From a virus, in IMG/VR virus record IMGVR_UViG_3300025645_000469, positions 1 to 23,301 of that record: a stretch of DNA of 23,301 nt. The stretch is one strand, 5' to 3'. This document shows, in pieces, positions 5,611 through 22,997 of this stretch (the first letter of the stretch is position 1; each line of letters opens with the position of its first letter). The notes under the pieces were generated by a model. It saw only the letters and a list, made by a program, of their open reading frames with translations, searched no databases and was not told where the DNA came from. The position numbers and the translations under genes are program-made.

Positions 5611-6095
5611 TAACCATTTCCTTTATCAGCGATAGTCTTAAAACCACCAGCAGAGGAGAAGATACTAGACCCTAGACCCCCAACAGCACCAAAGATACTA
5701 GCAGTAGACTGAGCACTTGCAGCATCCTGATTGAATGCAGAGGCTTGACTAGACATGGCTTGTAGTTGTTGACTAGTGGCTAACTCAGATGCTAGGCCAG
5801 TTGCCTGCCCTGCAATCGCACCAGCAATACCAGAACTACCTCCTGCACCACTAGTAGAAGCTGCTTGCTCTGCACCAGCCCTCTTAATCCTAGCTTCTCG
5901 TACAGCAGCATACCTGCTACGAGCAGACTGGATATCAGCCTGCCTCTGTTGAATCTCCATAGACTTACGTTGTGCCTTACCTGCCTTAGAACTATTGACA
6001 GCACTACCCACTGCACCAACACCCGCTGCTACAGCACCCACGGCTGCAATAGTTGCGGCATTGGCTACTACATATGCAGAAATCAATCCACTCAT
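5610..6095 (-). CDS. Internal virion protein, T7 gp14-like
   Basis: The 161-residue product starts at the ATG at 6095, overlapping the TGA of the cupin-SET gene by four bases (ATGA). Residues 3-33 form a hydrophobic Ala/Gly/Val stretch. A basic, Gln/Arg-rich helix follows at about 36-75 (RKSMEIQQRQADIQSARSRY), and the remainder is rich in Ala, Gly, Ser and Gln. This matches the style of T7 gp14, the smallest core protein, which forms the outer-membrane part of the ejection channel. Its place directly upstream of a very large ejection protein supports this. The sequence is low in complexity, so the assignment leans on order and composition rather than on specific motifs. Confidence 0.75.
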   Translation of the reverse strand: MSGLISAYVVANAATIAAVGAVAAGVGAVGSAVNSSKAGKAQRKSMEIQQRQADIQSARSRYAAVREARIKRAGAEQAASTSGAGGSSGIAGAIAGQATGLASELATSQQLQAMSSQASAFNQDAASAQSTASIFGAVGGLGSSIFSSAGGFKTIADKGNG

Positions 6096-6940
6096 TCTTC
6101 TATCCTCGTGCTAAGGAACGCATCTATATAATTCACAGTGACTTCATCACCCATAAGACCACCATTACTACCACCAATATCTTCACAAGCGACAAGATCG
6201 ACATCCCCATCATCTGACATTACCATCCTTGCATTAGGCAAGGCAGAGTGGTTAGTGTATCTGCCTGCTGGAGTTCTCTTCCCATCTATCCTACCCTTTG
6301 CTATAATGTCACCCGCTTTAATGGGGGCAGTAGCAAACAAACCCAACCCATGTAACGTAGATGGTCGTACCATCACTGAGTATGTCCCATCTGGGAAGGG
6401 GATCAAGTCTCCTTCATACTCAGCCATCTCCTGTACCTGCTCAGGAGTGAATCCTAAGTACCTACAAGCCTCGTTGTAGTCTTCCCTCTCTAGTTCTATC
6501 ACCTCACTGTAAAGCTCCCCCAGAGCCTCCTCCTGCTCATACAGAGCAACACTGTCAGTGAAGATGTCCTGCTCAATACTAAGGACATCCTTCTTATCAG
6601 TGGAGTAGATGTTAAGCCAGATAGAATCCTCTAGGAATATACCAACCTTCTTACCCGCAGGGGCTACCATCATGTGAGGAGCACTAATAGTTTGCTTAAC
6701 CCCCTCAGGGGTATAGAAGGTACAGCTACCCTTGAGGACTACATTCATCTGTGCATTCTTCTGCTCTCTACCAGTAGCAAATGTACCCGCTGGTACATGC
6801 AACTCTCTGATGTATAGGTTAGGCCCAAAGGTGTGGTACACAGGAGTCTGTGCTTGGGGAGACTTCAGTAAAGCAACCTCGAACTTAACCATCTCCTCTG
6901 GAGTATACTCAGATATGTTCTTAAGAACAGAAAGGTTCAT
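6092..6940 (-). CDS. Cupin-SET fusion protein, probable protein-lysine methyltransferase
   Basis: The start is the ATG at 6940: AGGAG lies seven bases upstream, and the codon overlaps the TGA of the tail-nozzle gene (ATGA). A longer frame from a TTG at 6973 is less likely. The 282-residue product has a cupin-like beta-barrel at about 43-112, containing PAGTF and a late APAGKKVGIF strand, a helical acidic linker at about 115-178, and a C-terminal SET domain at about 187-272. The SET hallmarks are all present in order: HGLGLFA (197-203) for S-adenosylmethionine binding, GRYTNHSALPNA (226-237) matching the NHS-x-PN pseudoknot motif, and GDEVTVNY (264-271) carrying the catalytic tyrosine. SET proteins transfer methyl groups to lysine side chains; the substrate here is unknown. 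The gene sits between gp12-like and gp14-like genes, the slot of T7 gene 13. Domain calls are strong; the virion or host target is inference. Confidence 0.88.
   Translation of the reverse strand: MNLSVLKNISEYTPEEMVKFEVALLKSPQAQTPVYHTFGPNLYIRELHVPAGTFATGREQKNAQMNVVLKGSCTFYTPEGVKQTISAPHMMVAPAGKKVGIFLEDSIWLNIYSTDKKDVLSIEQDIFTDSVALYEQEEALGELYSEVIELEREDYNEACRYLGFTPEQVQEMAEYEGDLIPFPDGTYSVMVRPSTLHGLGLFATAPIKAGDIIAKGRIDGKRTPAGRYTNHSALPNARMVMSDDGDVDLVACEDIGGSNGGLMGDEVTVNYIDAFLSTRIEE
6916..6929. repeat. 14-bp palindrome TGTTCTTAAGAACA at the start of the cupin-SET gene
   Basis: The palindrome falls in codons 4-8 of the cupin-SET gene (SVLKN), just after its start codon and near the gp12/SET junction. 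It is identical to the copy at 13494-13507 including five flanking bases. Confidence 0.75.
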
Positions 6941-9285
6941 GGTGCTTCTCCTGCTATGAATGGAATACTCCAACCCAATAACTCCATGTCCTTGCCAGCC
7001 TCCGATGTAATCTGTATAGACAGAGCCTTCCCTCTACCACGAATCTTATTCTTAGTAGTGATGACAGACTGCCCATAGTCAAAGGTATCATCAGCACCTG
7101 TAGGTATGTAGTTCCTAAGAAGTCTATATGCTTGGAACTGCGGCCCAATCTTGCCACTATTGGCATGATCAGCAAAGTCCCACTTAGCACTAACTAAACA
7201 GCTACTAGGATTGATTGCAGTAAGGGCACCACCCGTATCAATGAACCCCTGCTCAGTCCTTGTGAAGTGAAAGGTTACATACATAGCCTGCTTCCACTTA
7301 GAACTATCTCCTACTATCTCGTACCCTGTGACAAGCTCACTAGTGTAGTCTGCACCCGCCGTATTGTAGGTGTACCAGTCAGCAAAGGTGCTACTTCTAT
7401 AGCTACTGAAAGTAAATAGAAGGTTGCCCGAGGAGTTGGGGAGTATTGTGAGATACTTAGTATAGCCGCTACCCCTAGAGAACTCTCCCCTAGTGACAGC
7501 CACATCAACAGCATTTGCTTGCACTAGGACTCCATTAACAACCACAGGGTTAGCAAAGTCTACTACTGTAAAGGTAGGCATGACAGCAAACCCAGCAACA
7601 TGTGGAGAGTTAGCATCTCCTGATATGTCAGATATGGTATTGGTATAGAAGGCAGTAAGCAGTGTATCAAACACTAACTCTCTATTGTAATTGTGCCTAC
7701 TTGTGACACCATCATAGCCCACCTCATCATTGTAAAGCCATGTAACCTTCCGAGTCTCACTATCAAAAGATCCCTTAGCAAACTTCCTACCAACAGAGGG
7801 TATCGCTGAGTAGTGGCTCTGTATTGTAGTAGCTGAGATGTTCTGTGGACGTAGGTATCCAGAACTCTGGTCATAAGACAGGGTATAGATACCACCAGCA
7901 GCCCAGTACAGGATAGTACCCTCCACTTCTACAATACTAGTAGCACTCAAAGCACCAATACTACCAATCTTATTTACTTGATAACCTAATGCAGTAAAGC
8001 CTGCATCAGTGTCCCCAAGCAATTCCCATACACCATTCTCTGCAATGATGAGTAATGATCTATCAGTAGCAACCATCTTGAAGATGTTACTAGCCTCAGG
8101 TATCTGTATGTATCCACCATCAGTGGCTACAAGATCTGAGATATTCTCTGATGTTGGGTCAGCCTCTTGGTAGCAGTATCCAAGATCATCTACATTAGAT
8201 ACTAACTTAGTAAAGAAGACAAAGCCTGTGTAATCAGGAGACTTAGAGTCTCCATTTGACACATCACTCTGTATACCAGAGTAAAATACTCTACCTGCAT
8301 ATGCAGCAGAAGTAGTAATAGCCCCATTCTCTAAATCTTCTGGTAGACTACTAAAGATTAGATTGTCTGGTGTGAAGTACCCAGTATCTATGTTGATGGA
8401 GTATCCACCCTCATAGAAAATCTCATCTTCAATGACGTTATTGTACAAGGAGGCTTGTTCATTACGACTAGCTCCCCTAGAGAACGCATTGATAACCATC
8501 CTACCCTTGGGGGCTGGAGTATTACCTGCATAGTTACGAACAATCAACTGGGGTTTGAATACTTCTTCAGCACTCTTACCATACACCTGTAGATCTACAT
8601 TAGATGGGTACAATCCAGTACCCGGAGCATCACCATCACCACTAGATCCCCCAGTATTAAACTCTTGTATCTTTTCCATGTCCCAACCCTGATTAAGTAG
8701 GTTGTATTTATGGACATCTGTTAAAGAAGCGGGTCTTTCTGTGACAGTCTTGTCTTCATAGATACCAAAGAAGTCTCTAATGGAGAATAGGATTAGTTCT
8801 GAGGATACAGTGTCTGTATCTTCATCATACACTAGGTAGAATGGCTGAAAGCCCACACCACACACCACTAAGTACCCATTGATACTAGTCAGATCCACTA
8901 AATCATCCCCAGAACCTTCTAATGTAAAGGCACTACCCCCATTCTTGAAGTTAGCAGAGAGATCATCGTGGAACATATCAACAAACCACAACTTATTACC
9001 CACTTGCACTACACCAAAACGTAGGGTGGACTTGTTATTGATACCATACCAGATATCAAACCCTACAGCAGCAGTATCTAGGGATACATTAGTACTACCT
9101 GAGTCTTTTAATAGGTATCCGTTTTCATATTCCATGCCCAGCCTACGTTGAATACTCCCAGTACGGTTCAATAGAAAGTTATCAACCACTTGTGCAGTGT
9201 TTTCAGGATATGAAAGAGGGGATGCCTCCGTCATTAAGCCTTTGACAAAGGTAAAGGAGGTTTTAGTACCCGCAGATACCGGCAT
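6937..9285 (-). CDS. Tail nozzle / tail tubular protein B, T7 gp12-like
   Basis: The 782-residue product starts at the ATG at 9285, immediately after the TAG of the 61-residue gene. The N-terminus (FVKGLMTEASPLSYPENTAQ, then a VVDNFLLNRTGSIQRRLGMEYE stretch) is the typical opening of T7 gp12-like proteins, in which most genome-adjacent loci are followed by a beta-propeller-like body. The rest is beta-rich with repeated aromatic and Gly turns and has no membrane segment. In T7 six copies form the nozzle at the tip of the stubby tail and seal the DNA channel until adsorption. The partner adaptor (gp11-like) is encoded two genes upstream, consistent with joint assembly. The reading frame ends in an ATGA overlap with the cupin-SET gene, so expression of the two is linked. 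Confidence 0.9.
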   Translation of the reverse strand: MPVSAGTKTSFTFVKGLMTEASPLSYPENTAQVVDNFLLNRTGSIQRRLGMEYENGYLLKDSGSTNVSLDTAAVGFDIWYGINNKSTLRFGVVQVGNKLWFVDMFHDDLSANFKNGGSAFTLEGSGDDLVDLTSINGYLVVCGVGFQPFYLVYDEDTDTVSSELILFSIRDFFGIYEDKTVTERPASLTDVHKYNLLNQGWDMEKIQEFNTGGSSGDGDAPGTGLYPSNVDLQVYGKSAEEVFKPQLIVRNYAGNTPAPKGRMVINAFSRGASRNEQASLYNNVIEDEIFYEGGYSINIDTGYFTPDNLIFSSLPEDLENGAITTSAAYAGRVFYSGIQSDVSNGDSKSPDYTGFVFFTKLVSNVDDLGYCYQEADPTSENISDLVATDGGYIQIPEASNIFKMVATDRSLLIIAENGVWELLGDTDAGFTALGYQVNKIGSIGALSATSIVEVEGTILYWAAGGIYTLSYDQSSGYLRPQNISATTIQSHYSAIPSVGRKFAKGSFDSETRKVTWLYNDEVGYDGVTSRHNYNRELVFDTLLTAFYTNTISDISGDANSPHVAGFAVMPTFTVVDFANPVVVNGVLVQANAVDVAVTRGEFSRGSGYTKYLTILPNSSGNLLFTFSSYRSSTFADWYTYNTAGADYTSELVTGYEIVGDSSKWKQAMYVTFHFTRTEQGFIDTGGALTAINPSSCLVSAKWDFADHANSGKIGPQFQAYRLLRNYIPTGADDTFDYGQSVITTKNKIRGRGKALSIQITSEAGKDMELLGWSIPFIAGEAP

Positions 9286-10860: not shown

Positions 10861-11136
10861 CTACTTCCAGTCTCGGTTTAGCCAAGTCTTTAATCTGTGG
10901 CAATTAGCGCACAGAGTTTGTAAGTTGCTCTCACTGTTATCCGTATGATCTCCATCTATATGATCAACATCTAACTGGCAAGTATGGATAGGAACAAACC
11001 CACACAACTCACACTCAGACTTTAAACTAGATCGGTAAGGTTTCTTCTTGCAAGGGGAACAGTACAAGTCCCATTTACCATTCCCTTTGTTAGTTGCATA
11101 ATTATTACAACTAGCATTCTTGCAATTTTGCCTCAC
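10861..11136 (-). CDS. HNH homing-type endonuclease with zinc-binding Cys pairs
   Basis: The 91-residue product shows the classical HNH core: DVDHIDGDHTDN (57-67), Asn71, and a closing CANCH (76-80) that pairs with CELC (42-45) to hold a structural zinc. A second Cys set (C5, C10, C26, C29) may hold another zinc ion. HNH enzymes make single or double-strand DNA cuts, and in phages they are commonly freestanding homing genes. The start is a GTG at 11136 preceded by a GGGGGGTG purine run eight bases upstream. Unlike its neighbours it is flanked by untranslated gaps on both sides (21 and 32 bases) instead of overlaps, which fits an insertion between the 160- and 199-residue head genes. Confidence 0.88.
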   Translation of the reverse strand: MRQNCKNASCNNYATNKGNGKWDLYCSPCKKKPYRSSLKSECELCGFVPIHTCQLDVDHIDGDHTDNSESNLQTLCANCHRLKTWLNRDWK

Positions 11137-15413: not shown

Positions 15414-16961
15414 TTAGCGGTAAGATACTCCACCAAACCTACTGTGACTAATCACATTACTCTTTGCTGTCTGCATATAACCCATTCTCTTTGGTGGAAT
15501 TGATATTTCAATAGCTGATGTTAAAGCATCCTTGATGTCATCATGTGGTGGATGAGATGCAATAAGCTCTTCTTCAAGAGTCTGACAATGACCACCACGA
15601 TAATGCCACATAGCAAGGTTGTCATAACGAGGCTCAAGCACAGCAGCAATACGCTCTTCTTTAGTTCCTTCATGGCGACTAGGACGATGCTCCTCTACTG
15701 ACAGTGCAAGACCATACTGCTTGATCTGTTCACGTAGTTCCCGTACGATAGCCTGTTGAGCTACCGTTACTTCAGCCCTAATCTTCCTAAAGCCCCACTT
15801 AACATTAGACTGCATAATCTTCTCGAAGTACTCTTTGATCCTATCAGTCTTGAATCGTTCCACATCTACTACATAGATGTTACCTTCAAAGTCTAAGCCT
15901 ACTACTACAATGGCTGTAAAGTCAGCCAGCTTCTTAAGGCTGAATGCAAAGTCAATAGCAGCAAACAAGTTCAGCTTCCTATCTTTGTAGTACCAAGCCC
16001 CTTCATTCTGTAATAGATGCTTACGATCATAGTACTGGAACTTACTGGCTGAGATCCCAGACCCTGTGGGGTCATTGGGGTTGTTGTAGTACTGTGCATA
16101 AAATTGTGTCTTATCCAAGTACTGTCCTCGCTTCTTAGCAAGGATAGCAACATCAAACCCAAACCATTTACCATCTGCTCTACGCATCTTAGGCCAAAGG
16201 AACTGACCCCTACCATCACCCTGATCTTCTACTACTCGTTCAAAGATCTCATAGATGTTATCACTGCCTAGTAACTCACCTTCATCATCATAGGTATCCT
16301 CCTGCATCTCCTGTAGATCGTTGTACAGATCCCTTGGGTGATACCTAGTACCTACTACCCACTCCATAGCTCCGGGGTTCTCAATGGAGGATAGGAGGCT
16401 ATACTGTGTCCTAACCTTGTTACGACCATCCTCAGTGTAAGCATTCTCCTGTACGATCACATCATCCAGTACAGCTATGTCACAGTGTAAGCCTGTAATA
16501 CTTGTAGTCAGTCCTGCTGTAAAGACTGTGGGATCTCGTACACCCTCTGTCTTTCTCTTGGGGTGATCTACTGATATCTCCCCTGCTGTCCACTTCTCTC
16601 TCTTGCCCTCCTGAGGGTTGATCATGTCAGGCCAGTACCTAGTGTATACTGCACTAGTTAAAACGTCCTGTATGGCCTTCAGTTGCTTCTCAGCGAGGTT
16701 TGCAGTAGAGCTGATGTATAGGATAGTAACCTCTGGATTCTTAGTGATCCACCATGCTACCCTGTACGCAATCATGTTACTCTTCTGATGTCCTCGTGGG
16801 AGTAGGGTAAGCTGATGTGTCTTAGCATCAGACCTATTCCACCACTCCACCAACTCACTATGGATATTACCAAGCAATCTCTGTGGAGCTACTAACTTAA
16901 TGAATGTGATTAGGTCTGCTTCAGCAGCCTCCCTAATCTCATCCTTAGTGTACTTAGCCAC
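15414..16961 (-). CDS. terL: Terminase large subunit (packaging ATPase and nuclease)
   Basis: The 515-residue product starts at a GTG (16961), adjoining the TAA of the LamG gene, with a GGGG purine run about eight bases upstream. The ATPase domain has a Walker A loop LLPRGHQKSN at 53-62 (G-H-Q-K-S, a diverged form of GxGKS) and Walker B IAVLDD at 162-167. The nuclease domain has the RNase H-like acidic residues at Asp337 (FAAIDFAFS), around Asp366 (VVDVERF) and at 474-478 (HDDIKDAL). This is the motor that docks on the portal and translocates and cuts concatemeric DNA. The small subunit is encoded upstream, but a LamG gene intervenes, and portal follows, an order unlike T7, where gene 19 comes last. 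Confidence 0.95.
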   Translation of the reverse strand: MAKYTKDEIREAAEADLITFIKLVAPQRLLGNIHSELVEWWNRSDAKTHQLTLLPRGHQKSNMIAYRVAWWITKNPEVTILYISSTANLAEKQLKAIQDVLTSAVYTRYWPDMINPQEGKREKWTAGEISVDHPKRKTEGVRDPTVFTAGLTTSITGLHCDIAVLDDVIVQENAYTEDGRNKVRTQYSLLSSIENPGAMEWVVGTRYHPRDLYNDLQEMQEDTYDDEGELLGSDNIYEIFERVVEDQGDGRGQFLWPKMRRADGKWFGFDVAILAKKRGQYLDKTQFYAQYYNNPNDPTGSGISASKFQYYDRKHLLQNEGAWYYKDRKLNLFAAIDFAFSLKKLADFTAIVVVGLDFEGNIYVVDVERFKTDRIKEYFEKIMQSNVKWGFRKIRAEVTVAQQAIVRELREQIKQYGLALSVEEHRPSRHEGTKEERIAAVLEPRYDNLAMWHYRGGHCQTLEEELIASHPPHDDIKDALTSAIEISIPPKRMGYMQTAKSNVISHSRFGGVSYR

Positions 16962-19634
16962 TTAGATACCCCAGTACTCTCTACCCATGTCATCCAATCC
17001 ACCAGTATACCCCATGTCAATAAGGTACTGTTTCTCCATATCTTGTACTGTACCCTCATACCCCAATGAACTGAGAGCACTCCTCTTAACATCATCAATA
17101 GAACCTGTGGGAGCTACTAGTACTCCAGTATCCATATCAATAGTGACAGCCTCTAGCACTGAACTATCTTTATCTAGGAGGGTACTAACTAGGTATCCAT
17201 CTATATGACTAGACCCTAAGTATCTCTGTACTAGGAGTACTTCATAGTCTGTCAATGCCCTGTCGAAGATGATGAATCGGGCTATACTGCCGGTGAGGGT
17301 GTTGGCGACTGCATCACTCGCAAAGAGTGTCACAAACTGCATGTCTTCCGCGCCCAGATCGCCAACTATTTCCGACAATCCGTTAGCTTGTACTGAGCTT
17401 GTCGTGTCTTTGTTATACCTCACTGTCAGTAATCTTGGGTCAGTATTTGCCGCTCCCGGAATCAAAGATGCACCTGCGTTAATCTGGTAATTCCCAGTGG
17501 TATTAACCGCTTGATAAAGCGCCTTTGTGATGTCGTCCCTTGCATTAGAAATAAATTGTGCAACGCCAGTTAAAGCGTCTAATTTTGCAACCGTGAATTG
17601 AGTTAGTTCGCCAGTAATCAGCGCCGGTGCCACCGTAGTCTCAAGCCCTGCTGCACCGTAACTCTTAACCTCATCCTGCCCGCTGTTCTGGATTACTGCG
17701 CCACCGTGGAGTGTGTAGGTAGCACCATCAGATGACACAAAGGTATCACTATCCAGCCCAGTAGCTGATCGTCCTGCGAGGGCTGGGTTGAAGTCTACTG
17801 CGATGGCTGCGGTGGGTTTGACGGAGCTAAGGGAATCGTCCCATGTCAGGGTCGCTCCTACAGTTAGCGTGTTTACCACAAGCGCCACATAAGTTGTGGT
17901 GGCAGTGGCCGTGAATGGCAAGCTAAAAGCGGTGCCTGCGGCCTGAGCCACGGTAGCGTATGGAGCTGCAGCAACGGGACTATTTGATACGTTTAGCGCA
18001 CCAACAGCCCCACCTATATTTGAGGAAGCAAGGTAAGCATTGAAGACATAAGACACGCCAACAACCGTTGTTATAGCCTTAATCGCTCTCGCGGTACTGC
18101 CATCTGCCCCATTCTCAAGGATAACGACCGTATCGCCATCTTGCACTAAAGGCGCACCGAAACCGGAGTCTGTCCAATCCCCAGCAGGAAGAATATCCTC
18201 CCCAAACTCCAACCCCTGCGGCAAGATACCGCTGATGATACCGGCACGGTGGATTTGGCCTGTGAGGGGTTCGGCTGCGCCTGCGGCATAAGCACCAACT
18301 TCTAAGGTTGCCGTGTTGTCAAAGATAGCGGTCTGCGTAATTGCAACTGCTGATCCAAGTTGTGTCGCTGCTGCAAATGCTGTTGAGACATCTGCCGTGG
18401 GTGCAGATGGAGAGGTGTAAAAGGTAATGTTTGTGCCGATATCTATGGCGGCGAATAACCAGTATCCCGCCCCATCTGCGTAGGGCGTTACAGCGGCTCC
18501 TTGGTAAACACTTGCAGAAGTCCCATCTAGGCTCAAATAACACTGAGGTGTTCCTGCCGTTGGCGAGTGGTCTATCATTAGCGTGAAACCACGTTGGTTG
18601 CCGGTTGGGAGGTGCTTGCTAATAATAGTTTGCCCAGAAGCTGGAGTATTATCCACCGGCTGCACATACCCATAAAGAATACAGTCACCCGTAACACTAT
18701 TAGCAGGACTATCAGCCGCACTCGCATAACTACCCGACACACCATCGAGCAGCATCGCGCCTGAACTGTGTGACCGGAGGTTTGCCGCTGTGCCAAGGAT
18801 GGTGTCGAGGTCGTAGGCGTCACGGTAGATGGCGTTGGTTGATGTCCATACTGCTCCACCTGATGTCAGCGTACTACTCGCATAGTCACTCTGCTCACGG
18901 GCATCCCAGCTTGCGGCTAGGCGGGTGTCGTCGTGGAGGGTGAATCTTTGGATGGTGCCGGTGAAGGGGGAGAGTCCTGATGCGTAAGCGCCAATATCTA
19001 AAGAAGTAGTAGAGGTAAATAACGCCCCTGAAGTTCCAGCTACAGTTGCACCTAATTGGACGAAGGCTCCTCCTGCTGGAGTTGTATAGAAAGTCCATAC
19101 TCCTGTCGATGCTACTCGCTCAACTTTGATGTCGTAACTCTGACCGTCCGTGAGTGTTGGCGCTACCGTTGAGTTTGCACCTAATGTGTTTGTCCCGTCC
19201 GTGGAATACCACACATGCAAACTACCGGCAGGGGAGTTGTCAATGTCAACGATCCACGATTTAGTGCCTGCCCCTACCCACTTCCCCGCCAGCGCCTGAA
19301 ATTCAGCAGGCGTAAAGTCACTCGCAGCCACACCATAGAATGTCCAAGTCTGCACAGCCCCAGTCAACGCCAAGGCACCACTGTCAGGTGTACTCACATA
19401 GGCATCTGTGCCATTGAAGTATGCTGCCTGATTACGGTTAGCCATGTTACGCCAGCGGGTTACTGCACCTGCTGAGGTGGTGATGCCAGATGAGTTGAGA
19501 TCAACCAGTGCTGTACTGATGAGAGCTTGTGTCTCACTCACCTTAGCTAGAGCTTGGTAGTACTGACGCTCAACGTCTGTACCCCTAGAAGCACTACCAA
19601 TTGCACTAGCCATTGCTGTATACTTATTAGTCAT
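16962..19634 (-). CDS. Multi-LamG virion adhesin with compositionally foreign core
   Basis: The 890-residue product starts at the ATG at 19634, directly after the TAG of the small-terminase gene. After a helical N-terminus (1-50) come a LamG/concanavalin-like domain at about 70-235 (AAYFNGTDAYVSTPD opening), a second at about 290-470 (AMLLDGVSGSYASAAD), a jelly-roll carbohydrate-binding-like module at about 482-600 (GDWTDSGFG to LTWDD) and a third LamG-like domain at about 605-806. The C-terminus (807-890) is a different, acidic region with SLGYEGTVQDMEKQYLIDMG. LamG folds commonly bind glycans, so a receptor- or surface-binding virion protein is likely. DNA from about 17,260 to 19,480 is richer in GC and CpG, while both gene ends have the composition of the neighbours, suggesting domain exchange inside a resident gene. 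Whether it attaches to the tail or the capsid is not shown. Confidence 0.82.
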   Translation of the reverse strand: MTNKYTAMASAIGSASRGTDVERQYYQALAKVSETQALISTALVDLNSSGITTSAGAVTRWRNMANRNQAAYFNGTDAYVSTPDSGALALTGAVQTWTFYGVAASDFTPAEFQALAGKWVGAGTKSWIVDIDNSPAGSLHVWYSTDGTNTLGANSTVAPTLTDGQSYDIKVERVASTGVWTFYTTPAGGAFVQLGATVAGTSGALFTSTTSLDIGAYASGLSPFTGTIQRFTLHDDTRLAASWDAREQSDYASSTLTSGGAVWTSTNAIYRDAYDLDTILGTAANLRSHSSGAMLLDGVSGSYASAADSPANSVTGDCILYGYVQPVDNTPASGQTIISKHLPTGNQRGFTLMIDHSPTAGTPQCYLSLDGTSASVYQGAAVTPYADGAGYWLFAAIDIGTNITFYTSPSAPTADVSTAFAAATQLGSAVAITQTAIFDNTATLEVGAYAAGAAEPLTGQIHRAGIISGILPQGLEFGEDILPAGDWTDSGFGAPLVQDGDTVVILENGADGSTARAIKAITTVVGVSYVFNAYLASSNIGGAVGALNVSNSPVAAAPYATVAQAAGTAFSLPFTATATTTYVALVVNTLTVGATLTWDDSLSSVKPTAAIAVDFNPALAGRSATGLDSDTFVSSDGATYTLHGGAVIQNSGQDEVKSYGAAGLETTVAPALITGELTQFTVAKLDALTGVAQFISNARDDITKALYQAVNTTGNYQINAGASLIPGAANTDPRLLTVRYNKDTTSSVQANGLSEIVGDLGAEDMQFVTLFASDAVANTLTGSIARFIIFDRALTDYEVLLVQRYLGSSHIDGYLVSTLLDKDSSVLEAVTIDMDTGVLVAPTGSIDDVKRSALSSLGYEGTVQDMEKQYLIDMGYTGGLDDMGREYWGI

Positions 19635-20129
19635 CTAGTGCATCCCTACTCGTTCAGCATCTTCATCCAGTTCAGCTTTGATGTTAGTACGAACACGTTC
19701 TTCCCTAGCTAGTTCATCTTTGGATGGGCGACCTCTGGTCTTCTCCCAACCTTTCTCTGCTAAGTACTTGGCTGCACTAACACCTTTACTGCCCTCTTCC
19801 AATGCAGCCCTTCTCATTGCTTTAAGGGCTTCACAACGTAACTTAATCTCCAACTCCTCTCTCCATCCTTGGAAGACTGGAGCAAGAGCATAGCTCTTAT
19901 TCATAGCTTGCCAATGATCCCAACCACCCAGTACCTCAGTAGCAAAGCTATACTCAGTAGGATCTGCATAGTCTAAGAAGATGTTCTTCAAGGAAGGGTA
20001 CACTACACCATCCTTCTCCAAGTCATACCCCTTCAGTGTAAAGGATGGTTCATGTACAGCATGACGTTCTTCCCAGAAGATCGCCAAGGTCAACCACTTA
20101 CCTGTTCCATCTTTACAAGGGCCAATCAT
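19635..20129 (-). CDS. terS: Terminase small subunit, T7 gp18-like position
   Basis: The 164-residue product starts at the ATG at 20129, overlapping the TGA of the holin-like gene (ATGA). It has the recurrent pattern of many marine and enteric podovirus small terminases: a segment with FLDYADPTEYSFATEVLGGW and WDHWQAM, a helix with WREELEIKLRCEALKAMRRA, then AAKYLAEKGWEKTRGRPSKD and a charged helical C-terminus. The small subunit recognises the concatemer and regulates the TerL ATPase. The order spike, holin, TerS matches T7 17, 17.5, 18. The assignment rests on the family-like pattern and position; the DNA-binding region is not an obvious textbook helix-turn-helix. Confidence 0.82.
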   Translation of the reverse strand: MIGPCKDGTGKWLTLAIFWEERHAVHEPSFTLKGYDLEKDGVVYPSLKNIFLDYADPTEYSFATEVLGGWDHWQAMNKSYALAPVFQGWREELEIKLRCEALKAMRRAALEEGSKGVSAAKYLAEKGWEKTRGRPSKDELAREERVRTNIKAELDEDAERVGMH

Positions 20130-20431: not shown

Positions 20432-20804
20432 CTTTGAATTTCCCTAGTAACATCTTAATGGCTGTAACCCAGAATGGGTACTGCCACTTATGGAACTTAT
20501 GTCCATAGGTGTCTTCCATGTATTGCTTAGTCACATACTTACGTGACCAGTTGTCAATGTACATACCAGCAAACTTCAGCACTGCATGACCACCACCGTT
20601 GGCTGTAGTCACGAAGTGGATCTTGGCAGAGCCAAACACCAGAGCCATCCAGAACGACCACAGTGATCCTGTGGCGATGTACAGGGCAGTACATGCAAAG
20701 TCATCGCAGTCTCCGTGCAGGTCGCTCACATCCAGTATACGCCATGAGTCAAACTTACCGTCCGACTGGTATGTGAAGCCTGTTGCTAGGTCGTCGAGTG
20801 TCAT
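20424..20804 (-). CDS. Transglutaminase-like cysteine peptidase (BTLCP / peptidase C93-like)
   Basis: The 126-residue product starts at the ATG at 20804, overlapping the TGA of the tail-spike gene (ATGA). It contains the three catalytic blocks of the transglutaminase-like fold in order: Cys33 in HGDCDDFACTA, His73 in GGGHAVLKF and Asp84 in MYIDNW. The GDCDDF and HAVL blocks closely resemble bacterial transglutaminase-like cysteine proteinases, which cleave peptide bonds rather than crosslink. There is no signal peptide; the C-terminus is amphipathic (YPFWVTAIKMLLGKF). It lies in the lysis slot beside a holin-like gene where no classical endolysin is visible, so it may cut the peptide part of the cell wall, or it may process a virion or host protein. 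The catalytic triad is clear; the substrate is inference. Confidence 0.8.
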   Translation of the reverse strand: MTLDDLATGFTYQSDGKFDSWRILDVSDLHGDCDDFACTALYIATGSLWSFWMALVFGSAKIHFVTTANGGGHAVLKFAGMYIDNWSRKYVTKQYMEDTYGHKFHKWQYPFWVTAIKMLLGKFKGA

Positions 20805-22465
20805 ACGAAGTAGGTTATGGCCACAATAAAAGTATCTCCTGATGTAATGTCACCAACTTGTAAGTCTAGGGGTGCAGCGGCTGTTCGTGATCCTGATACT
20901 ATAAAAGTAGAATCAGATCCATTAGTCCAAGCACCACAAGATAGATTCTGAATTGCTGCATTTAATACAACGCCATTAGTCGTTACATTGCCAGTCAAAA
21001 ACTGTAAAGCGCCTTTAGGGTATGGTAGACCCCCGAATCTAAGAGTCCCTGTGCCGGGAGTATTAATAGTGACCGTTAGCAAAGCGGATACCGTAACTTG
21101 CCTGCCGATACGAACAAACTGCGCGGTTGTACTTGCAATAGTGTAATCCCCCGGAGTTGTCCCGCCTACTAAAGTAGGTATCCAAGCACCCTCTTCATAG
21201 TAATCTAAAGTGTTCACATCTGTGCTTGGAATCAGCCCAGTTAATTGGATGCCTGTGGGAGATCTAGTTGCTATTGTGCCCCCGCTAATACTTGTGGTTG
21301 TGGAAGAGTCATCCAGTACCGTACCCAGACCTGTTATGTACGCAGTCTCGATTACCGCATTGTTAACATCAGCCTCTATCTGGTATCCGATTAACCCATT
21401 TTCGATATAGCCCCCATGTACCCTGTTCTGGGTATTGGTATTAGCTGCTGGAGAATTCCACTGGTAACAGATACCGTTAGTTGTATCAACATTCTCTATA
21501 GCTACGTTGTAGATAGAGTTACCATTACCTTCAATATGAAAGCCCACAGCGCATTGACCAACTCGCCCTCCTATCCACGTATTAGCGTTAGCAGATCGGT
21601 ATAAGGGGGTGGTTGATGACATAAAAAAGCCAGTATGGTCTGTGCTATCCACACCCTGAACTTGGCAAGTATCGAACCTGTTATAATATGGGCCTGTACC
21701 ATTAGTCTCATCACCTACAAGAGTAATGCCCTTACCATTAGTAACTCCTGCCCGGATAAGCACATTGACTTTATTGAATACACTATAACTTGTTTGTAAT
21801 AGTATTCCAGATGTAGATGTGCCAGCATTGAGATATATAGCTAATGAATCTATAGTTATTTCAGTATTGTAAGTGGTGCCATTTAGTAAATTAAATCCAA
21901 TTGCATGAGCAGTGCCATAGTAATCAATGATGGCATTTCGTCCCAAAATAGTTGTGCCATATCCTGTGATATTAAGGGTGCTCTCTGTTCTAAATTTTGC
22001 TCTTGCTCCTGCATTCCCAAAATCTAAGACTCCATAGGCGGCAGCATCTAATGCCGCTTGTAGATAACTAGATACGTCTACAGTACTTGTTCCAGCAAGG
22101 ATATCGGGATATAGTGAGGCTGGTATATAGTCCTTAACGGATATAGTCTGACGGAGCTTATCTTCAACCGTAGTAGGTATCGCCCCAGTACCGTCAGGAG
22201 TAAAAGTTATTTGCGAAGCATCTTCAGCCACTAATCCTGCTGGCGCTAGCAAAGTACCATTGAGTAAAAACTCTGTAGCATTTACCCTCTGCACATTTAA
22301 AAGATCATTGTTATTAAGATCAATGTCAGCAAGCATAGTATTAGGACTAGTCCCATCACGGGACAGGGTATTATCAAACCCTGTGGAGATTAAATCAAAC
22401 AAAGCATTAAGGGCAGCTACAGACCCATAGCTTCCAGTAATGTCATTCAAAACTACCTTACTCAT
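20801..22465 (-). CDS. Tail spike with beta-helix body, receptor-binding protein
   Basis: The ATG at 22465 is preferred: AGGTG lies six bases upstream, and a longer frame would need a GTG at 22474. The product (554 residues) starts with a helical N-terminal anchor (SKVVLNDITGSYGSVAALNA) and an LNNNDLLNV segment common in podovirus fibres. About residues 120-400 read as a right-handed parallel beta-helix, opening with a pectate-lyase-like start (QTISVKDYIPASLYPDI) and continuing in short Asn/Gly/Thr-rich turns. From about 420 a separate beta module begins (DYYEEGAWIPTLVGGTTPGD) of a type shared by many phage fibres. It would bind, and may degrade, a surface polysaccharide; no catalytic pair can be assigned by eye. 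It overlaps the HNH gene by eight bases and the peptidase by four. Confidence 0.88.
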   Translation of the reverse strand: MSKVVLNDITGSYGSVAALNALFDLISTGFDNTLSRDGTSPNTMLADIDLNNNDLLNVQRVNATEFLLNGTLLAPAGLVAEDASQITFTPDGTGAIPTTVEDKLRQTISVKDYIPASLYPDILAGTSTVDVSSYLQAALDAAAYGVLDFGNAGARAKFRTESTLNITGYGTTILGRNAIIDYYGTAHAIGFNLLNGTTYNTEITIDSLAIYLNAGTSTSGILLQTSYSVFNKVNVLIRAGVTNGKGITLVGDETNGTGPYYNRFDTCQVQGVDSTDHTGFFMSSTTPLYRSANANTWIGGRVGQCAVGFHIEGNGNSIYNVAIENVDTTNGICYQWNSPAANTNTQNRVHGGYIENGLIGYQIEADVNNAVIETAYITGLGTVLDDSSTTTSISGGTIATRSPTGIQLTGLIPSTDVNTLDYYEEGAWIPTLVGGTTPGDYTIASTTAQFVRIGRQVTVSALLTVTINTPGTGTLRFGGLPYPKGALQFLTGNVTTNGVVLNAAIQNLSCGAWTNGSDSTFIVSGSRTAAAPLDLQVGDITSGDTFIVAITYFV

Positions 22466-22997
22466 ATGTAGCACCTACCCATTCAGCGAATGCCCTTAAC
22501 TGTTCGGGAGTGGCATTGTTCTTCATTCGATTAGCTAGGTGTGACATAATCATTACATTCCCTTTGACATATCCCTCTGATGGGATGATCTTATCTATTG
22601 TGGGGCTACCTGCTTGGAGACCACCTGCATTGTCATCTCCACGGTAAATCAATTCTATGCCCAACACTGGGCAATGAGTGGGCCACTCTAAGTCTTTCTT
22701 TGTTAAGTTAAAAGGAACTCCTTGGCGCTTGGCTCTAGCCTTTGCTGTAGCAACCATTTGAGTCTGTTGTGCCTTGGGGCTACTCTTTTGATACTCAGCA
22801 AAGTACTCTCTACGTTCCTGCTGAAGCCTACGAGTATTTGCTGACGCACAGGTCTTGCACTCACCACGCAAACCATCCTTAGAGGCACCCCTACTACTAA
22901 AGGAAGACATGGGCAAGGTGTCCTTACACTTAGCACAAACCTTAATCCCCTCAAGGAGATGTACATTGGAATGTACTTGTGATGTAACCTTAGCCAA
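22458..22997 (-). CDS. HNH endonuclease, endonuclease VII-like with N-terminal zinc ribbon
   Basis: The start is a TTG at 22997 with GGAG nine bases upstream and no better in-frame ATG nearby. The 179-residue product begins with a zinc ribbon (CAKC at 21-24, CKTC at 47-50), has a basic helical middle, and ends in a phage-type HNH core: HCPVLGIELIY (108-118), TIDKIIPSEGYVKGN (133-147) and LANRMKNNATPEQL (154-167). This pattern is shared by freestanding phage HNH enzymes and endonuclease VII-related nucleases. It is the first gene after the leader and precedes the tail spike, a common place for homing genes. It could promote its own spread or fibre exchange; a role in DNA processing is possible but not shown. 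Confidence 0.87.
   Translation of the reverse strand: MAKVTSQVHSNVHLLEGIKVCAKCKDTLPMSSFSSRGASKDGLRGECKTCASANTRRLQQERREYFAEYQKSSPKAQQTQMVATAKARAKRQGVPFNLTKKDLEWPTHCPVLGIELIYRGDDNAGGLQAGSPTIDKIIPSEGYVKGNVMIMSHLANRMKNNATPEQLRAFAEWVGATYE

Follow-up and report, generated by a model that had tools for sequence, protein, structure and literature searches.

Phages are known to swap domains of their binding proteins, and the recent cases presented in the main text of PMC10684548 were mostly exchanges between related phages. In cobaviruses, the stretch adjoining the large terminase gene (TerL) has been reported as variable and fibre-coding (PMC6775973), and the account of metaviromic islands in PMC3909814 names recognition genes as variable among close relatives, and terminase genes likewise, the latter for reasons called 'more obscure'. 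The locus analysed here adjoins TerL in a 23.3-kb virus record (the window, that is, the whole stretch of DNA analysed), a podophage fragment known from sequence data. On the homology of its TerL, head-tail connector and TerS-like proteins, this fragment can be placed in Zobellviridae/Cobavirinae. Our preferred reading, to which we give a probability of roughly 70%, is that the 890-residue product of the gene beside TerL is a virion adhesin whose lectin-like modules are exchanged through recombination at their conserved borders.

The adhesin-like gene and the slot beside TerL

The gene for this modular, adhesin-like protein (16962-19634, minus strand), recognised from its open reading frame and composition, is open and unbroken over 890 codons and has no spacer on either side: the TAG of the upstream gene stands directly before its ATG, and its own TAA directly before the GTG of TerL. 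TerL (15414-16961, minus strand), the right flank of the site, was identified by Pfam and PHROG matches and by homology, and its product is 61-64% identical to the TerL proteins of Roseobacter, Lentibacter and Celeribacter cobaviruses. The left flank is a putative small terminase gene (TerS; 19635-20129, minus strand) of the conserved family phrog_8035, for which the PHROG function label is 'unknown'. Among the 60 matches listed of 98 records, none was called terminase; no relative of solved structure was found below E 0.39, and the window member has no Pfam match. To judge by its position, it probably is TerS.

In a survey of the locus, 80 TerL relatives were kept of 598 passing; 91 loci had a TerL match, with L005 and L014 being one contig counted twice. 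A TerS match was present in 39 of the 91, and the other 52 end too soon or are without detectable TerS. The gap between the two genes was below 60 bp in 14 of these 39 loci, 60-999 bp in 12 and at least 1 kb in 13, and where annotated records show a long gap, tail, fibre or structural genes lie in it. In L016 (TerL 89%), the TerS stop overlaps the TerL start and no gene lies between them, so that the site is empty. These long, fibre-filled gaps together with the empty site indicate that the gene occupies a normal and optional slot. The preliminary description had regarded the terminase genes as normally adjacent or separated by spanin genes, and the adhesin gene as wedged between them; to judge by the 13 long gaps, adjacency is not the rule in this phage group, and the location is ordinary here, the cobavirus stretch beside TerL being a known variable tail-fibre region (PMC6775973). 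In view of the same gaps, we no longer regard the insertion point itself as unusual. TerS adjoining the adhesin gene was seen in the window alone, which counts against our preferred reading; in L002 the adhesin gene also precedes TerL, and no TerS match was found upstream of it.

Some observations were made on other genes of these loci. In L017 (TerL 88%), a different small gene (71 aa, L017:135-350) precedes TerL, and so the slot holds other cargo too. A second putative receptor-binding protein, formerly called the tail spike, is encoded in the window at 20801-22474 (minus strand) and matches phrog_18671 over aa 4-64. Its first ~60 residues are common to many related phages and the remainder is mostly without a match; in several related phages, the gene with this spike-type N-terminal segment sits between TerS and TerL. 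By eye, a 293-aa protein (6092-6973) is SET-domain-like in its C-terminal half, and two small genes (10861-11136 and 22458-22997, the second adjoining the spike gene) are HNH endonuclease-like.

Modules, predicted folds and base composition

All parts of the protein are encoded on the minus strand. The head (aa 1-47, 19494-19634) has phage-like composition and predicted helices, and gave no significant match in 50,697 phage records. It is followed by the LamG-like module A (aa 48-260, 18855-19493), with homologs in L002, L094, L095, L096 and L099, and by its LamG-like paralog B (aa 261-470, 18225-18854), with homologs in L002, L102 and L104; both were assigned by fold matches, and B-type modules are 27-36% identical to module A of the window. 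Next come module J (aa 471-606, 17817-18224), missing from L002, and the putative module C (aa 607-806, 17217-17816), previously called LamG-like, with homologs in L002, L003, L004, L099, L102, L103, L104 and L105. The tail (aa 807-890 and stop, 16962-17216) is free of CpG, carries two GYxGxxxDM repeats, and is confined to the lineage of the window among the loci scanned. A similar repeat ends the Vibrio phage protein QH_0010; matches to Vibrio phages through this double repeat (16962-17174) were at E 1 or worse.

Neither Pfam at E 1 nor PHROG at E 0.1 returned a family for the 890-aa protein, and the curated cut-offs of Laminin_G_3 and Laminin_G_2 were reached neither by it nor by eight homologs, the best of which were L099 (PF13385, E 0.0022, 18.6 bits versus a cut-off of 27.6) and L104 (PF02210, E 0.01). 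The predicted model of the whole protein had a mean pLDDT of 48.5. Module A folded alone reached 65.9, with ten-residue blocks of 68-92 over residues 51-190. These weak models count against our preferred reading. The structural matches of the full model and of module A were pentraxins, the thrombospondin N-domain, sialidase CBM40 and laminin LG domains, with Z 14.2 (rmsd 3.2, 165 aligned) for module A alone, Z 14.6 for module A in the full model, and Z 13.6 (rmsd 2.9, 156 aligned) for module B against CBM40. Modules A (~aa 66-271) and B (~aa 278-472) are thus predicted, at low to moderate model confidence, to belong to the laminin-G/pentraxin/CBM40 fold group. Of the LamG-like domains and jelly roll proposed earlier, A and B are upheld by predicted fold, but the jelly roll, assigned to module J, is not (pLDDT ~25-32). 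The fold group takes in the sialic-acid-binding CBM40, the heparin-binding thrombospondin N-domain and pentraxins; a shared fold by itself shows no function, and glycan binding by the modules is a conjecture from it.

No member of the family turned up in the phage, plasmid or prokaryote collections searched. By tblastn at E 1e-5 the whole gene had no match in the 50,697 phage records, the core alone at E 10 gave three weak rows (best E 0.2), and the L102 adhesin protein had no match at E 1; 72,556 plasmid records held no match. Profiles of the borders and of module C were run against genome contigs of 84,980 prokaryote species and yielded 55 and 29 pattern hits, none of them a relative, in scans that require a short peptide pattern first and so could miss distant relatives. 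The titles and abstracts searched describe no such gene family, with most subscription papers outside the scope of that search.

The core of the gene (17260-19480) has a GC content of 52.6% and a CpG o/e of 0.83, and stretches of the same 2221-bp length outside the gene reach at most 0.468 GC, with a mean of 44.3% (sd 0.010). The first 154 bases of the gene (GC 0.455, CpG o/e 0.25) and the last 298 (GC 0.423, no CpG) resemble the rest of the phage. The GC- and CpG-rich core with phage-like ends noted in the preliminary description was thus confirmed; its figure of ~60% GC is correct for two 60-base lines (0.600 and 0.633) but not for the core as a whole. The GC3 of codons 53-790 was 0.474 versus 0.328 expected from the codon usage of the other genes of the window; therefore, the GC excess of the core is not explained by amino-acid make-up. 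Both composition steps fall within one uninterrupted 890-codon frame. Flanks of carriers in the lineages named V, U and Y below have GC 0.50-0.55 and CpG o/e 0.89-1.03, and those in the window's own lineage Z have GC ~0.44 and CpG o/e 0.43-0.49. Since the composition of the core is closer to the former, this suggests that the core was imported into lineage Z. If the gene were simply an inherited tail-fibre gene with atypical codon usage, the site would suit it, being the usual fibre site; however, the site is empty in L016, parts of the gene are common to unrelated phages, and the GC3 excess goes beyond what amino acids explain. We consider this rival already contradicted and hardly credible.

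Carriers of the modules and their near-identical borders

Eight scans of viral contigs, with repeats of the same contig merged and L109 (a 20-residue match) left out, identified parts of the adhesin in 15 contigs, the window and 14 others, which fall into seven lineages by their flanking genes: Z (window, L002, L003, L005, L015, L103), Y (L099, L102), X (L095, L105), V (L094), U (L096), T (L004, L107) and S (L104). Judging by their metagenome numbers, several carriers presumably come from one estuary. The architecture is head-A-B-J-C-tail in the window, head-A-B-C-tail in L002, head-A-C in L099, head-B-J'-C in L102 and head-C in L105. Carrier flanks differ and include a T7-type TerL, other TerL types, a portal of another family, a lambda J-like tail tip and a different major head protein; the other proteins of the window had no tblastn match in L004, L094-L096, L099, L102, L104, L105 or L107. 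In lineages Y, T and S, the adhesin gene also closely precedes terminase genes, by gene order and the PHROG match of TerL. Two further similarities were observed outside the adhesin gene: L096:3723-3949 and L107:5171-5610 have 55 bp at 96% and 179 bp at 84% in common, and a gene that by eye is NusG/RfaH-like directly precedes the adhesin gene in L099 (1734-2165) and L102 (2274-2705).

Gene order also bears on the alternative that the protein decorates the capsid, coating the head and binding particles, mucus or extracellular polymer, and is not a receptor-binding protein of the tail. In L095/L105 the adhesin gene comes after one small gene and, before that, the gene for the major head protein (seen in L095), and the gene for the Vibrio phage protein QH_0010, cited above for its C-terminal repeat (E 1 or worse), lies near genes that look head-like by eye. 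On the other hand, the adhesin gene comes after tail genes in L094 and L096, and the cobavirus site beside TerL is described as holding tail-fibre genes (PMC6775973). We regard capsid decoration as unlikely, yet as the rival to be taken most seriously.

An exchange was observed between the siblings L099 and L102, whose contigs match at 93-97% outside three regions, namely a run of small genes, the TerS-TerL genes and the middle of the adhesin gene. Their adhesin genes agree at 95.6% in the first 159 bp and at 97.4% in the last 457 bp, but the middle has been replaced: identity runs up to the VTRW codons and is back at GIETTV. As the difference is a block replacement, it argues against point diversification. 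L105, of another lineage, resembles L102 up to a point in the gene and L099 beyond it, or the reverse depending on the direction of reading, and L095 and L105 have a common head (92% over 52 bp) and then differ. The siblings also have different TerS-TerL genes (L099:3776-5536 versus L102:4863-7070), and by BLASTP their TerL proteins have only a 66-residue C-terminal stretch in common, at 38%.

In lineage Z the pattern is mixed. Between the window and L002 (TerL 88.7%), the head fails to align, the N-terminus is the least conserved part and module A, although it lies within the presumed foreign core, the best, with nucleotide identity mostly 0.78-0.96 between aa 69 and 228. Between the window and L103 (TerL 96%), module C and the tail have both diverged (52% nucleotide identity overall), and only the last 25-30 codons rise to 64-78%. 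These codons are the part of the tail still alignable at the DNA level in L002 and L103, and because they stand directly before the TerL start they may be kept for translation of TerL. In lineage Z, conservation of the ends does not exceed that of module A, which counts against our preferred reading. The earlier proposal of an exchangeable core between conserved anchors thus holds in lineage Y and, for the head, in lineage X, but only by half in the window's own lineage. Compared as sequences, the anchors are specific to a lineage and not strongly conserved; the exchange is a patchwork by module, while behaviour of the core as an exchangeable cassette is supported.

Stretches of the window's core were found at 87-99% nucleotide identity in contigs otherwise unlike it in gene content, and between lineages with non-matching flanks, segments at 85-99%, with silent sites agreeing as well, recur at module borders. 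With thresholds of at least 30 bp and at least 85% nucleotide identity, 19 inter-lineage rows passed, four of which were set aside: three repeat the window via L003, and one, a duplicate of the L003-L099 hit, was projected onto the wrong repeat. The remaining segments all touch four border zones (aa 42-109, 226-286, 641-686 and 778-793), with two rows spanning a module junction and touching one zone on each side. In the window these borders lie, on the minus strand, at 19308-19511 (aa 42-109; 87-93% identity with L094, L095 and L096), 18867-18959 (aa 226-256; 98.9% over 93 bp with L094), 17616-17713 (aa 641-673; 96.9% over 98 bp with L004, within an otherwise diverged module) and, at the 3' composition step, 17257-17301 (aa 778-793; 86.7% over 45 bp with L004). 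At the protein level, identity was 94% over 51 aa with L096 and 80% over 66 aa with L095; fragments of at least 70% amino-acid identity between otherwise unrelated phages, by which mosaic receptor-binding proteins are recognised, are therefore present.

Near-identity between the window and L094 extends over ~aa 50-105, with a dip to 0.69 around aa 65-90, and over aa 226-255. The borders themselves are 96-100% identical, including 10 of 11 four-fold sites at aa 50-64 and all 8 at aa 226-240, in contrast to aa 111-220, where identity is 38-69% and each 15-codon window has 0-2 identical four-fold sites. For each of three pairs (window and L094, window and L004, L099 and L105), none of 2000 column shuffles reached such a block; for window and L103 the best block was matched in 1175 of 2000 shuffles and so does not exceed chance, which counts against our preferred reading.

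Two readings of these blocks would do without recent exchange between phages. The core could be a piece of another phage joined by the assembler at near-identical blocks: 10 of the 15 carrier contigs terminate within the adhesin gene, which indicates that it is difficult to assemble, and since lineages have blocks of 93-202 bp at 87-99% identity in common, the assembler could have made a chimeric join there, which weighs against our preferred reading. However, the independent contig L003 spans aa 604 into TerL and agrees with the window at 99.3% in the last 287 codons, and a single open frame covers A-B-C-tail-TerL in L002, a further contig of this lineage. Over the lengths given, the blocks in common fall short of full identity, and neither composition step interrupts the 890-codon frame. 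We find such an artefact very improbable. Alternatively, strong selection or a nucleotide-level signal, e.g. a recombinase target, might account for the blocks in place of recent exchange, as the border peptides AGAVTRW and IETTVAPAL recur across many lineages. Yet other pairs keep the peptide with differing silent sites (window versus L099, 30 of 74 four-fold sites identical), and no direct or inverted repeats of at least 14 bp were found in 16800-19800; we find this account very improbable. A repeat-driven or invertible switch was also considered, and was dropped because no repeats of that length were found there.

The reading preferred here, a virion adhesin with swapped modules, would work as follows. 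The adhesin would consist of LamG-fold lectin-like modules, to which one more may be added, between a head and a C-terminal tail that are both phage-specific; its gene would take the slot beside TerL that serves this podophage group for variable fibre genes. The middle would be drawn from a module pool common to unrelated phages. During co-infection, recombination at short, near-identical border DNA would swap or add modules in frame; this would change what the particle binds, while head and tail would keep the protein attached to it. As a doubtful but possible extension, podophages and siphophages sharing hosts or habitat may combine A, B, J and C from one cross-lineage pool of lectin cassettes, with near-identical standard DNA borders as crossover points, and the adjoining terminase genes may be swapped in the same hot region.

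Comparison with known systems

The predicted fold of modules A and B is that of LamG-fold lectin-like domains such as pentraxins, CBM40 and the thrombospondin N-domain; sequence identity, however, is 8-16% among the matches listed, and the window protein has no Pfam match. With the cobavirus tail-fibre region as described in PMC6775973 (CRP-5, ICBM2, SIO1, P12053L), the locus has in common the position beside TerL, the variable number and content of genes, and a TerL within the identity range given above. It differs in that these phages have no match to the window adhesin itself, and in that the window carries one compact modular gene with a foreign core.

Like the marine phages with metaviromic islands in PMC3909814, L099 and L102 differ at both adhesin and terminase genes; such islands are recognised by under-recruitment of reads from the same habitat, and the present comparison used contigs. 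The locus thereby bears on the marine-virome puzzle, left there with 'more obscure' reasons, of terminase variation between near-identical phages, and a common cassette pool with terminase genes swapped in the same region, if true, would help explain such variation between close marine phages.

On its sequence, the gene is probably an instance of known receptor-binding-protein mosaicism, one that reaches unusually far across lineages and has its shared DNA at the borders of modules. As in the cases given in the main text of PMC10684548, domains of high identity are shared between otherwise unrelated phages, and close relatives combine a near-identical end with a swapped domain. Unlike those cases, the window gene has no receptor-binding-protein annotation, L099 and L102 swap the middle and not the C-terminus, and shared DNA lies at module borders; the words 'laminin' and 'lectin' are absent from that main text. 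Here, seven lineages with non-matching flanks hold pieces of one adhesin family, silent-site identity is concentrated at module borders, and an empty site in a close relative is accompanied by a sibling pair with the middle exchanged. Together, these make the route of exchange testable.
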